Assembly (NCBI RefSeq): GCF_002214585.1
Contig: NZ_CP014862.1
Location: forward strand, 1,860,001-1,924,000
Source: Thermococcus profundus
GTDB lineage: Archaea; Methanobacteriota_B; Thermococci; Thermococcales; Thermococcaceae
DNA: 64,000 nt
Direction of reading: 5' to 3'
Positions 269 to 7,078 of this stretch are shown here, in pieces. Every line of letters begins with the position of its first letter. Within the stretch, counting starts at the first letter, position 1. Made by a program: the position numbers and the translations under genes. The notes beneath the pieces were generated by a model. It made no database searches, was not told the origin of the DNA, and saw only the letters and a program-made list of their open reading frames with translations.

Positions 269-329
269 TTTCATCACCTCAGCGAAGCGAAGACTCCTCA
301 TCGGTTGCCCTCAGGTGTCCTCGGCCTCA

Positions 330-1136
330 TCATTTCTTTTCCAGGTATTTCTCAAGGCTCTTCGCAGGGACATCAAGGGGCAAGCCTAGCACTTCAAGGG
401 CCTTTCTGAGGGCGTAGATTCTGGCGTGCCCCTCGAACTCACCGGGGGCAAACGAAGACGGCTGGAAATGGAGGTACTTTTCAACAACCGCTGGAATCTC
501 GGACTTCTTCACTTTCTTAAAACCAGCGAACCATTCGTTTATTCCATCGATGTCTATGCCAGCGTAGGCGGGTATCTTGAGCGTCGTGGTTTCGTTGATG
601 CTAGCTAGCAGTCTGGCCACATCGACCATGGGCGTTGCGTCGTCTATTATGAGTCTCTTTACAACTATCCACTTCGCGTGCTTGGCCGTGAAGTTCACGT
701 GATCGTCCGCGAAGGGAAAGACGATCTTAACCTCCCCCAGCGAACCCTCGGGATAGGAGACAGTTTCGAATTTAGACACCGTCATCCTAACCAGAAGGGC
801 CTTGGCAGCATCTACCAGGAGCTTCTTGAGCTTCTTATCCTCCTCAAACACAAGCCCACCAAGCTTTCTAGCTGTCCCAGGGGACTTGAGCGCAACTACT
901 GCCTTCGCAAGGTCGTCCCCCGCGAGCTCCTCGGCGAGGCTCATTATCCCCGCCACGTTCATGACGCCCGTAAGGTATTCCGGGATCTTCGAGTTAACCG
1001 TGTTCGAGATCTGGGCAAGGAAGTGAGCCACCTTTAGGGGATCGTCCATATCAAGGAGCTTGTCAGCGACCTTCCAGTTCCCGTGCTTTGCCGTGAACAT
1101 TATGTGATCTTCCACACCCCTCGGCATGATCTCCAC
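330..1136 (-). CDS. DUF2666-type protein with two tandem repeats
   Basis: 268 residues from a GTG start. Two halves are clearly duplicated: DHIMFTAKHGNWKV near the N terminus and DHVNFTAKHAKWIV near residue 145, each followed by a helical stretch ending in a KIPEY/KIPAY motif. This resembles the Thermococcales/Methanococcales family I know as DUF2666, whose function is unknown. No signal peptide or membrane segment is visible, so it is probably cytosolic. The start is uncertain: GTG 1136, ATG 1127 and an internal GTG (VEDH) are all possible. The frame stays open about 29 codons upstream ([10 protein letters not shown] and so on) but that part has no ATG, GTG or TTG. It is divergent from lonB. 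Confidence 0.75.
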   Translation of the reverse strand: MEIMPRGVEDHIMFTAKHGNWKVADKLLDMDDPLKVAHFLAQISNTVNSKIPEYLTGVMNVAGIMSLAEELAGDDLAKAVVALKSPGTARKLGGLVFEEDKKLKKLLVDAAKALLVRMTVSKFETVSYPEGSLGEVKIVFPFADDHVNFTAKHAKWIVVKRLIIDDATPMVDVARLLASINETTTLKIPAYAGIDIDGINEWFAGFKKVKKSEIPAVVEKYLHFQPSSFAPGEFEGHARIYALRKALEVLGLPLDVPAKSLEKYLEKK

Positions 1137-1279: not shown

Positions 1280-3175
1280 ATGGAGGATGAGAAACCCTTC
1301 ACCTCCAGCCAAAACGGCGAGACGATCGATCTGGGGATCGATTTTTCGACGACGGAGGAGATAAAGGTACCTGAGAAGCTCATAGACCAAGTCATCGGTC
1401 AGGAGCACGCGGTCGAGGTCATAAAAACCGCGGCCGGCCAGAGAAGGCACGTCCTCTTAATAGGCGAGCCCGGAACCGGAAAGTCAATGCTCGGACAGGC
1501 GATGGCTGAGCTCCTGCCGACGGAAAACCTTGAGGACATCCTGGTGTTTCCCAATCCGGAAGACGAGAACATGCCGAAAATAAAGACCGTCCCCGCGTGT
1601 CAGGGCAAGAGGATCGTCGAGAAGTACAGGGAGAAGGCCAAGAGCCAGGAGAGCATCAAATCGTACCTTCTCCTCGCAGTGGTCTTCATGGTAATGATGG
1701 CCGTCATGATAGACTACAACACCACCAACTTTCTCATGGGACTTTTCGTGATAATCCTCACCATGATGGTCCTCTCCAACATGAGGATGAGGACGAGCGT
1801 TCTAGTACCCAAACTCCTCATCGACAACTGCGGAAGGAGAAAGGCACCCTTCGTCGATGCAACGGGCGCACACGCGGGTGCCTTACTGGGCGACGTGAGG
1901 CACGACCCGTTCCAGAGCGGCGGCCTCGGAACACCGGCCCACGAGCGCGTTGAGCCCGGCATGATCCACCGCGCAAACAAGGGAGTTCTCTTCATAGATG
2001 AGATAGCAACTCTGAGTCTCAAGATGCAGCAGAGCCTCCTCACAGCTATGCAGGAGAAGAAGTTCCCGATAACCGGCCAGAGTGAGCTCTCCAGTGGAGC
2101 TATGGTGAGAACGGAACCCGTTCCCTGTGACTTCATCCTCGTCGCGGCCGGAAACCTCGACACAGTTGACAAGATGCACCCGGCTTTGCGCTCCCGTATA
2201 AGGGGCTACGGTTACGAGGTCTACATGAGGACGACGATGCCCGACACGCTGGAGAACAGAAGGAAGCTCGTCCAGTTCGTTGCCCAGGAGGTTAAGAGGG
2301 ACGGCAAGATACCGCACTTCACGAGGGAAGCTGTGGAGGAGATAGTCAGAGAAGCCCAGAGGAGGGGCGGGAGGAAGGGGCACCTCACACTCCGCCTCCG
2401 TGACCTCGGAGGTATCGTCAGGGCCGCAGGAGACATAGCCGTCAAGAAGGGCAAGAAGTACGTCGAGAGGGAAGATGTACTTGAGGCCATGAGGATGGCG
2501 AAGCCGCTCGAAAAACAGCTCGCAGACTGGTACATAGAGAACAAGAAGGAGTACCAAGTCATAAAGACAGAAGGCGGGGAGATAGGCAGGGTCAACGGAC
2601 TAGCTGTTATAGGGGAGCAGAGCGGCATAGTCCTCCCCATAGAGGCCGTTGTCGCTCCGGCGGCGAGCAAGGAGGAGGGCAAGATCATAGTCACCGGAAA
2701 GCTCGGGGAGATAGCGAAAGAAGCAGTCCAGAACGTCTCGGCCATAATCAAGCGCTACAAGGGTGAGGACATCAGCCGCTACGACATCCACGTCCAGTTC
2801 CTCCAGACCTATGAGGGAGTCGAGGGTGATTCGGCCAGCATAAGCGTTGCCACAGCAGTCATATCGGCTCTCGAAGAGGTACCAATAAGACAGGACGTCG
2901 CTATGACCGGTTCCTTGAGCGTCCGCGGTGAGGTTCTGCCCATAGGAGGAGCAACGCCCAAGATAGAGGCGGCTATAGAAGCGGGCATCAAAACGGTCAT
3001 AATACCCAAATCAAACGAGAAGGACGTCTTCCTGGGTCCAGACAAAGCTGAGAAGATAAACATCATCCCAGTTGAGACCATTGATCAGGTACTTGAGATA
3101 GCACTGGAAGACTCAAAGAAGAAGGAGGAGCTACTCAGGAAGATAAGGGAGAGCCTGCCGCTAAGGAAGGCTTAA
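1280..3175 (+). CDS. lonB: archaeal ATP-dependent membrane protease LonB
   Basis: Membrane-anchored AAA+ serine protease of about 631 residues that degrades cytosolic and membrane proteins in archaea. From ATG 1280: Walker A GEPGTGKS at 62-69, two adjacent hydrophobic segments at about 128-147 and 149-168 inserted in the AAA module (the LonB hallmark), Walker B VLFIDEI at about 236-242, and the Lon protease domain with catalytic Ser518 in GDSAS and Lys561 in ATPK, the usual 43-residue spacing. No intein is present, unlike some Pyrococcus lon genes. ATG 1274 is possible, but GAGGG touches it; GAGGGATGAGC favours 1280. It stands alone and is convergent with the next gene. Confidence 0.95.
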
Positions 3176-4985: not shown

Positions 4986-5141
4986 CTTTTCATTTCACTT
5001 TCTACCCCGGAATTTATAGCCAGAATCATACAAAACGTTCGTTAATAGTCGAGGGAAAGAGTAATAAGGAATTACTCAGCATCAACCAAACAAAAGAGGT
5101 CTCAATCAGACTGCTTTATTCAGGCCCCAGAGGTGACAACA

Positions 5142-5864
5142 ATGCAAGGGACGATTCCCCCACTCATCGGTGGAACCATGATGGCACTGATGGGGTTCGG
5201 GGCGTATAAAACAAAGGCCCTCGACGGAAAGGGCAGCCTCTTCTCAGTCGTTTTTGGTCTTGCCGTGCTCTATTTGGGTGGACTCTACCCGTTTCTGGCG
5301 ATGTTAGCGTTCCTCATTATGGGTGTTCTCGCCACAAAGCACAGGTTCGAGGACAAAGTCCGCCTCGGCTTCTCATCGAAGAACGAAAAGGTCAGGGGCA
5401 TCGGAAACGTCCTCGGAAACGGATTCGCCGTCCTGATTTTCCTCGTAGTCGAGATGATAACCCGGCAGGATACCTTCTGGGCCGCCACCTTCTCCGCGAT
5501 AGCCACGGTAAACGGGGACACCCTCGCGAGCGAGCTTGGAAAGATCTACGGCAAAAGACCAAGGTTGATCACGAACCTCAGGCCCGTAAAACCCGGCACC
5601 AACGGGGGGATCTCCCTGGAGGGGGAGATCTTCGGCCTGCTCGGAGTCCTGGCTATAATCCCCTTCGCCCTTCCTCTCACCGCGTACAAGCTTCCAATGA
5701 CGCTGGCAATAATCATCGGAGGCCTCGCTGGGGTTAACCTCGACAGTTTGATAGGGGCCACCCTCGAAAACAGGGGAATAACCGACAACAACTCCACGAA
5801 CTTTCTCGCCTCCCTCCTGGGCGGCCTCGCTGGGGCCTTAATTTTCACCCTCATCGGCGGATGA
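5142..5864 (+). CDS. DUF92 (TMEM19-like) integral membrane protein
   Basis: 240 residues, nearly all hydrophobic, with roughly six or seven membrane segments. Family hallmarks are NGDTLASELGK (around 125-135), KPGTNGGIS (around 150) and DSLIGAT (around 205). DUF92 includes plant VTE6 phytyl-phosphate kinase and human TMEM19; it is related in topology to CTP-dependent polyprenol kinases, so a lipid-phosphate kinase role is possible but unproven in archaea. ATG 5142 follows GAGGTGA; an in-frame GTG lies within that site and was not chosen. Its stop codon overlaps the start of the candidate C/D-box RNA. Confidence 0.85.
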   Translation: MQGTIPPLIGGTMMALMGFGAYKTKALDGKGSLFSVVFGLAVLYLGGLYPFLAMLAFLIMGVLATKHRFEDKVRLGFSSKNEKVRGIGNVLGNGFAVLIFLVVEMITRQDTFWAATFSAIATVNGDTLASELGKIYGKRPRLITNLRPVKPGTNGGISLEGEIFGLLGVLAIIPFALPLTAYKLPMTLAIIIGGLAGVNLDSLIGATLENRGITDNNSTNFLASLLGGLAGALIFTLIGG

Positions 5865-5914
5865 TGACTACGGCGGATTCCCGAGGGGTGAGGAGGACCT
5901 TAGGGTCTGACGCC
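5856..5914 (+). ncRNA. candidate C/D-box guide sRNA
   Basis: The elements of an archaeal C/D-box sRNA occur in order: terminal stem GGCG (5856-5859), C box ATGATGA (5861-5867), a 13-nt guide, D' box CCGA (5881-5884, one mismatch to CTGA), a 3-nt spacer, C' box GTGAGGA (5888-5894, one mismatch to RTGATGA), a 12-nt guide, D box CTGA (5907-5910), and closing stem CGCC (5911-5914). The spacings are the canonical ones. It fills the gap between two convergent genes and overlaps the DUF92 stop codon. The D guide could pair, with two G-U pairs, to the conserved 23S rRNA segment GUCCUAAGGU (recalled, not searched), which would place the methylation on its fifth base, U. No RNA evidence is available. 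Confidence 0.6.
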
Positions 5915-6970
5915 TCAATCCTTATTCTTCAGGTATTCCTCATAAACCTCCCACAGCGAGACCAGAGCGGCCGGAATGCCGTGCTCCGTTGCGAAAGTCA
6001 TGTAGGGGGCGAGATCTACAACGTAGTCTGCAAAGCGGAAGAGACCCCTGGGAATTCCTTCTCTTGAACCCACGAAGACAACGACCTCTTTGGCCTTGTA
6101 CATGTCCCTCGCCAGTTCCTCCTTCACCTGAGCGAGGGTTGGCCCCTTGGGATCAGTGATTATGAGCAGTCTTTTACCCCTGCGCTTATCCCTAATCACC
6201 TGGTACAGGTCCCAGACGCTCACCGGGACCTTCTCGACCTTCCAGGGATACGCGTCCTTCTGTATTCTGTACCTGCTCTCCTGCCCAACCCTAACGCCCT
6301 TTATGAATTCGGCGAGCTCAAAGGCGTCCATCTTCTCCTTGGGGGCTATGATGAGTTCTTTGACCTCAAAGGCCTGGGCGGCCCGGCCGATCTTTTCACC
6401 GAACGTGCGGCAGGCCTTGTAGTCACCCCAATAGGGCATCTGAACAATGGTGAGCCTGTGGAAGAGCTTTCTAGCATCTACCTTGTCGGGCGTGAACTTC
6501 CTGAACTCCTCACCGGGGATTACCGAAATGTAGGCCTTGTCCCCGATGATCTCGACCTGAACAACCTTGTCGGGCCAGCTCAGATTCACGTCAGCATTCG
6601 TTAGCTCCTGAATCCGCGCACCGAGAGCCCTGTTGACGTCAAGGCTCGAAAAGCCGTGTTTGCCGCGCCTCTTGGTCTTAACCGCGAAAGTCTCGTCTTC
6701 ACCGATCAGGGGAGCTATCTTCTCGGCGGTGGTTACTATAGCTTCAAGATCCGCGGGAACCTCCGCGAGAACTGGCAGAACGCGCTCCACCTCTGGAATA
6801 TCAAGGATCTTCTTTTCAGCGTCTTCATCTCCACTCTCAACTATCACAAGGCCGTAGTATCCAAAGGGAGACGCCAACACCTCGGCATCGGAGAGGGATT
6901 CCCTTATGTAGTTGGCAGCGACGCCCTCCATGCCCCTCTGTGTCTTCACAAGAAACTTCCTCGACCCCAT
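5915..6970 (-). CDS. THUMP-domain RNA-binding protein with SPOUT-like C-terminal domain (COG1818 type)
   Basis: 351 residues. The N-terminal half (MGSRKFLVKTQRGMEG through EIIGDKAYISVI) has the THUMP pattern, including FAVKTKRRGKHGFSSLDVNRALG, typical of tRNA-modifying proteins. The C-terminal part (LLIITDPKGPTLAQVKEEL, VVFVGSREGIPRGLFRFADYVVDLAPYMTFATEHG) looks like a SPOUT-type methyltransferase fold. The substrate is unknown; a tRNA or rRNA base modification role is inferred. ATG 6970 follows GGTGGTG. The gene is divergent from nop5, with a shared promoter region, which keeps the RNA-modification theme. Confidence 0.8.
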   Translation of the reverse strand: MGSRKFLVKTQRGMEGVAANYIRESLSDAEVLASPFGYYGLVIVESGDEDAEKKILDIPEVERVLPVLAEVPADLEAIVTTAEKIAPLIGEDETFAVKTKRRGKHGFSSLDVNRALGARIQELTNADVNLSWPDKVVQVEIIGDKAYISVIPGEEFRKFTPDKVDARKLFHRLTIVQMPYWGDYKACRTFGEKIGRAAQAFEVKELIIAPKEKMDAFELAEFIKGVRVGQESRYRIQKDAYPWKVEKVPVSVWDLYQVIRDKRRGKRLLIITDPKGPTLAQVKEELARDMYKAKEVVVFVGSREGIPRGLFRFADYVVDLAPYMTFATEHGIPAALVSLWEVYEEYLKNKD

Positions 6971-7030
6971 TTCACACCACCGGCTCCACTTATGCGGAGG
7001 GTTTATAGACCTTTGGAGGCTCAGAAGAGA

Positions 7031-7047
7031 TATAAGCTTTTTATACA
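7031..7047. promoter_or_regulatory. divergent TATA region between THUMP gene and nop5
   Basis: The segment TATAAGCTTTTTATACA contains TATA-like elements readable on both strands. The second element is about 30 bases before the Nop5 start (7079), and the first about 60 bases before the THUMP gene start (6970). Called from pattern and position. Confidence 0.5.
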
Positions 7048-7078
7048 AGCAGGACAAAAGATCGCAGGGGTGATGATG

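Follow-up and report, generated by a model that had tools for sequence, protein, structure and literature searches.

A C/D-box double-guide sRNA gene at the DUF92/THUMP junction of Thermococcus profundus, conserved in the Thermococcaceae and with two predicted targets in 23S rRNA

In this work, we present a computational analysis of a 59-nt element located at positions 5856-5914 (+ strand) of the window, i.e. the whole 64,000-nucleotide stretch of Thermococcus profundus DNA that was analysed. The element is almost certainly the gene of an archaeal C/D-box sRNA, one that serves as a double guide in the 2'-O-methylation of 23S rRNA. It is an ordinary member of the archaeal C/D guide sRNAs and is conserved throughout the family Thermococcaceae. 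The RNA family that it represents is not covered by Rfam at threshold, two specific nucleotides in domain V of 23S rRNA are predicted to be methylated under its guidance, and the target that had been guessed for one of the guides is corrected.

Anatomy of the element and its surroundings

Read 5' to 3' on the + strand, the element opens with the 5' half of a terminal stem, GGCG (5856-5859), which pairs with 5911-5914, and a single G, followed by the C box ATGATGA (5861-5867), the 13-nt D' guide CTACGGCGGATTC (5868-5880), the D' box CCGA (5881-5884), a 3-nt D'-C' spacer GGG (5885-5887), the C' box GTGAGGA (5888-5894), the 12-nt D guide GGACCTTAGGGT (5895-5906), the D box CTGA (5907-5910) and the 3' half of the stem, CGCC (5911-5914). 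Terminal C and D boxes, an internal D'/C' pair with a short spacer and guides complementary to rRNA through the N+5 nucleotide, characters by which a C/D guide is recognized, are present. The D' and C' boxes each carry one mismatch, to CTGA and RTGATGA, respectively. A scan for this box order, in which D' and C' could each deviate at no more than one position and the terminal stem had to comprise 3 bp or more, returned 5856-5914 as the sole match in the 64 kb window, and no match was obtained in 100 first-order Markov sequences of equal composition. A preliminary description, made from the letters of the window, had proposed an archaeal C/D-box guide sRNA with these limits on this strand; its class assignment, limits and strand are supported, as is the overlap with both gene ends, and the box positions, the spacings, the GGCG/CGCC stem and the one mismatch in each of D' and C' were all reproduced. 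Another C/D-box sRNA lies at window positions 277-337 (- strand) and belongs to Rfam family sR45 (65.2 bits against a gathering threshold of 40).

The element fills the gap between two convergent genes. Upstream lies a gene of a DUF92 membrane protein (5133-5864, + strand; PF01940, 1.7e-53), the transcript of which is probably the host of the sRNA, and on the opposite side there is a gene of a THUMP-SPOUT RNA methylase (PF02926 and PF14419; ORF limits 5915-7057, - strand). As had been noticed in the preliminary description, the DUF92 stop codon TGA (5862-5864) sits within the C box, being its first TGA, and the THUMP ORF end at 5915 directly follows the element. The same description had pointed to Nop5 and fibrillarin genes 1.2 kb away. 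Both are indeed encoded in the window on the + strand (PF01798 and PF01269, respectively), at least 1.2 kb from the sRNA, but their proximity is no general feature of the locus, since they accompanied it in no more than 6 among the first 30 loci, as far as the short flanks reach. For that reason a functional link between the sRNA and the adjacent nop5 and fibrillarin genes was rejected, and their closeness is probably incidental.

Predicted targets in 23S rRNA

Both guides were compared with the organism's own 16S and 23S rRNA genes, and 23S sites were found for each of them. The D' guide, for which the preliminary description had no target to offer, is a perfect 13-bp complement of 23S positions 2403-2415 (14 bp if the adjacent base is counted), and by the N+5 rule the predicted methylated nucleotide is C2407. 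The best 23S site of the D guide is 2376-2387, with 11 bp composed of 10 Watson-Crick pairs and one G-U pair, the latter closing the duplex next to box D; here the N+5 rule points to U2380. The two sites are 27 nt apart, as is typical of a double guide, and the predicted nucleotides C2407 and U2380 correspond in the alignment to C2313 and G2286 of E. coli, respectively, in the H82-H84 region of domain V. When random genomic 13-mers were examined, only one in 4000 equalled the match of the D' guide, while in a much looser joint test, which asked for 8 or more pairs from each guide inside 60 nt, 22 out of 1500 random pairs succeeded. Duplex energies amounted to -26.4 kcal/mol for the D' guide and -20.4 kcal/mol for the D guide. 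The target previously put forward for the D guide, GUCCUAAGGU, had been taken from other organisms and is absent from this 23S rRNA, where the equivalent segment reads CCCUCUUAAGGUAGC (given also as CCCUCUUAAGGU and CCCTCTTAAGGTAGC); the corresponding duplex reaches only -10.8 kcal/mol.

In the genera examined both targets are invariant, the only departure being a change at the margin of the D' site in a single genome (G036). The guide cores, GGCGGATT and GACCTTAG, stay complementary to them across genera, and the changes fall on outer or adjacent letters. Because the rRNA targets do not vary, covariation between guide and target is uninformative. It is very probable, by analogy with characterized guides, that the sRNA directs methylation of these two neighbouring sites of 23S rRNA.

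The way in which it may do so can be outlined from what is known of the C/D sRNA family. The 59-nt RNA would form a terminal C/D k-turn and an internal C'/D' motif, bind L7Ae, Nop5 and fibrillarin, and present its two guides. Genes for Nop5 and fibrillarin occur in the window, in line with such a particle, and L7Ae is expected to be encoded in the genome. Pairing of the D' guide with 2403-2415 would bring about methylation of C2407, and pairing of the D guide with 2376-2387, 27 nt upstream, that of U2380. Assembly of the RNP, processing and methylation are drawn here by analogy with relatives, whereas anatomy, conservation and complementarity are directly visible.

Conservation, gene arrangement and loss in the Thermococcaceae

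A 371-base query detected the locus in 36 out of 61 genomes, and these 36 belong to a single genus; the element was present at the DUF92/THUMP junction in 29 of 30 fetched Thermococcus loci. In the alignment of these 29 sequences the boxes and both guides are nearly invariant, and the element is still conserved in gene gaps longer than 140 nt, where it is free of coding constraint. The terminal stem is paired in 100% of alignment cells, with a single change affecting both sides and a single G-U pair, a variation too small for covariation to prove the stem. A covariance model built from the Thermococcus sequences matched 82 of 94 Thermococcaceae genomes from all six genera, which is an upper figure for true orthologues, since a few matches are weak or represent other C/D RNAs. 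The second matches noted in some genomes are probably such RNAs as well; the copy that was checked, in locus L123, is sR32 and has different guides. The same model gave no matches in 21 genomes of the class outside the Thermococcaceae. Among the fetched loci of another genus, sR32 occupies positions 2006-2060 (- strand) of L123, and sR28 positions 3070-3124 (- strand) of L117.

In a wider fetch a DUF92 gene was found within about 150 nt upstream of the sRNA in 15 of 20 family loci. Other genera mostly have CTGA as D' and RTGATGA as C', and the two mismatches seen in T. profundus are therefore derived and arose later. In several loci of other genera (L119, L124, L115, L116 and L120) the sRNA extends at its 3' end into the THUMP stop codon, and in L119 and L124 both convergent genes terminate inside the sRNA.

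Two arrangements of the sRNA and the upstream gene were noticed. In 20 distinct loci from three genera the DUF92 stop codon lies inside the C box, and a TATA-like string was present upstream, in the scanned region, in only 4 of them. Within the genus to which the window belongs, 29 loci have the C box 18-37 nt (about 30) downstream of the DUF92 stop, and 24 of these possess a TATA-like string, mostly TTTTAAAA, at a near-fixed distance. T. profundus represents the former arrangement: a search upstream of its sRNA revealed no TATA-like element where one would be expected, and this, together with the overlap of the C box and the DUF92 stop codon, indicates that the RNA is probably trimmed from the 3' end of the DUF92 mRNA. 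In the Thermococcus subset with the sRNA shifted by some 30 nt, the gene is accompanied by its own TATA-like element. Most archaeal C/D sRNA genes have no promoter of their own and the stop codon of the upstream gene often falls in the C box; both this and overlap with gene 3' ends are common among the double-guide sRNAs of archaea (PMC7994747). Given this commonness, the arrangement in T. profundus is ordinary, and the switch seen inside a single genus illustrates it fairly well.

The RNA is missing from three near-complete genomes (G018, G021 and G029), all of which keep the 23S target; the gene was lost there, and the sRNA is thus not needed everywhere. In G029 a relic composed of the C box and the D' guide is followed by unrelated sequence (L151), and in G021 (L152) and G018 (L153) no trace of the sRNA is left, the intergenic gap in G018 being only about 6 nt. 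The locus accordingly forms a natural evolutionary series, leading from a stop codon in the C box of an RNA probably excised from mRNA, through a downstream shift accompanied by a TATA-like element and a broken relic, to complete loss.

These data also bear on other explanations of the element. That its boxes are a chance arrangement preserved by coding constraint at the gene ends might be suggested by the DUF92 stop codon overlapping the C box in T. profundus; conservation in the long non-coding gaps and the lack of matches in random controls refute this reading, and we assign it a practically negligible probability. The stop codon recurs within the C box in 20 distinct loci, and some predicted snoRNAs may be cis elements (PMC4247193), which would agree with a k-turn at the 3' end of the DUF92 mRNA that binds L7Ae and influences mRNA stability, with no guide acting in trans. 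Such a cis role is very improbable, because both guide cores, which fit neighbouring sites in 23S rRNA, are kept in six genera, and because many species have the element apart from the ORF and equipped with its own TATA-like element.

Another possibility is that the RNA serves mainly as a chaperone of rRNA folding and guides methylation only as a secondary task. Its guides would then pair side by side with a 27-nt stretch of domain V and keep it unfolded until assembly. The guides run colinearly with their targets in antiparallel orientation, with a spacing of 26 nt in the RNA and 27 nt in 23S rRNA, one of the targets lies within a predicted hairpin stem, and a chaperone role has been proposed for RNAs of this type (PMC4644070). 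On the other hand, targets lying within 100 nt of each other are the norm for double guides (PMC7994747), and there are lineages that live without the gene, so we regard a predominantly chaperoning function as unlikely. A combined view, in which a Thermococcaceae sRNA family absent from Rfam and with unreported targets uses its colinear guides, paired with the two ends of a short part of 23S domain V, both for methylation and as a folding chaperone of that region, appears to us rather doubtful too.

Relation to known RNAs

For Thermococcus kodakarensis, dRNA-seq has verified 54 C/D RNAs (PMC4247193), and 61 are listed in a later study, Table 1 of which places Tko-sR33 at 1,053,772 and Tko-sR35 at 1,103,565 (PMC9014305). 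In one of the genomes (G010), the 23S coordinates of which fit T. kodakarensis KOD1, the sRNA copy lies at about 1,100,953-1,101,011 (- strand), with the covariance model matching 1,100,950-1,101,014, and thus between these two genes, which makes it probably Tko-sR34, an identification based on gene order only; this copy was not found among the circularised RNAs of Table 1 of PMC9014305. For the Pyrococcus counterpart neither name nor targets were found in the main texts of the literature. RiboMeth-seq has been performed for P. furiosus, its methylation results being announced for a separate report (PMC7758197). Absence from Rfam does not mean that an RNA is undescribed, and the sRNA has perhaps been catalogued already.

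No Rfam family was matched at gathering threshold by the element or by its orthologues in other genera. The best sub-threshold match was RF00095 (snoPyro_CD), with 27.4 bits against a gathering threshold of 45, and the same family gave 30.4 bits, again below 45, on an orthologue from another genus, probably Pyrococcus. Membership in the sR families (sR41, sR11, sR23, sR35, sR1 and others) was rejected, as the best score was 23.0 against 54 bits. A dozen archaeal C/D families match the element below threshold over its full length, and with RF00095, sR41, sR11, sR23, sR9 and sR14 the boxes align from end to end, while the guides are not shared. The archaeal double-guide sRNAs of Pyrococcus, Thermococcus, Pyrobaculum and others have the same box order, guide lengths and D'-C' spacing, as well as a pair of nearby rRNA targets. 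Compared with the Rfam families tested, the sRNA described here shows no structural difference and is distinct only in its pair of guides and in the 23S sites to which they are complementary.
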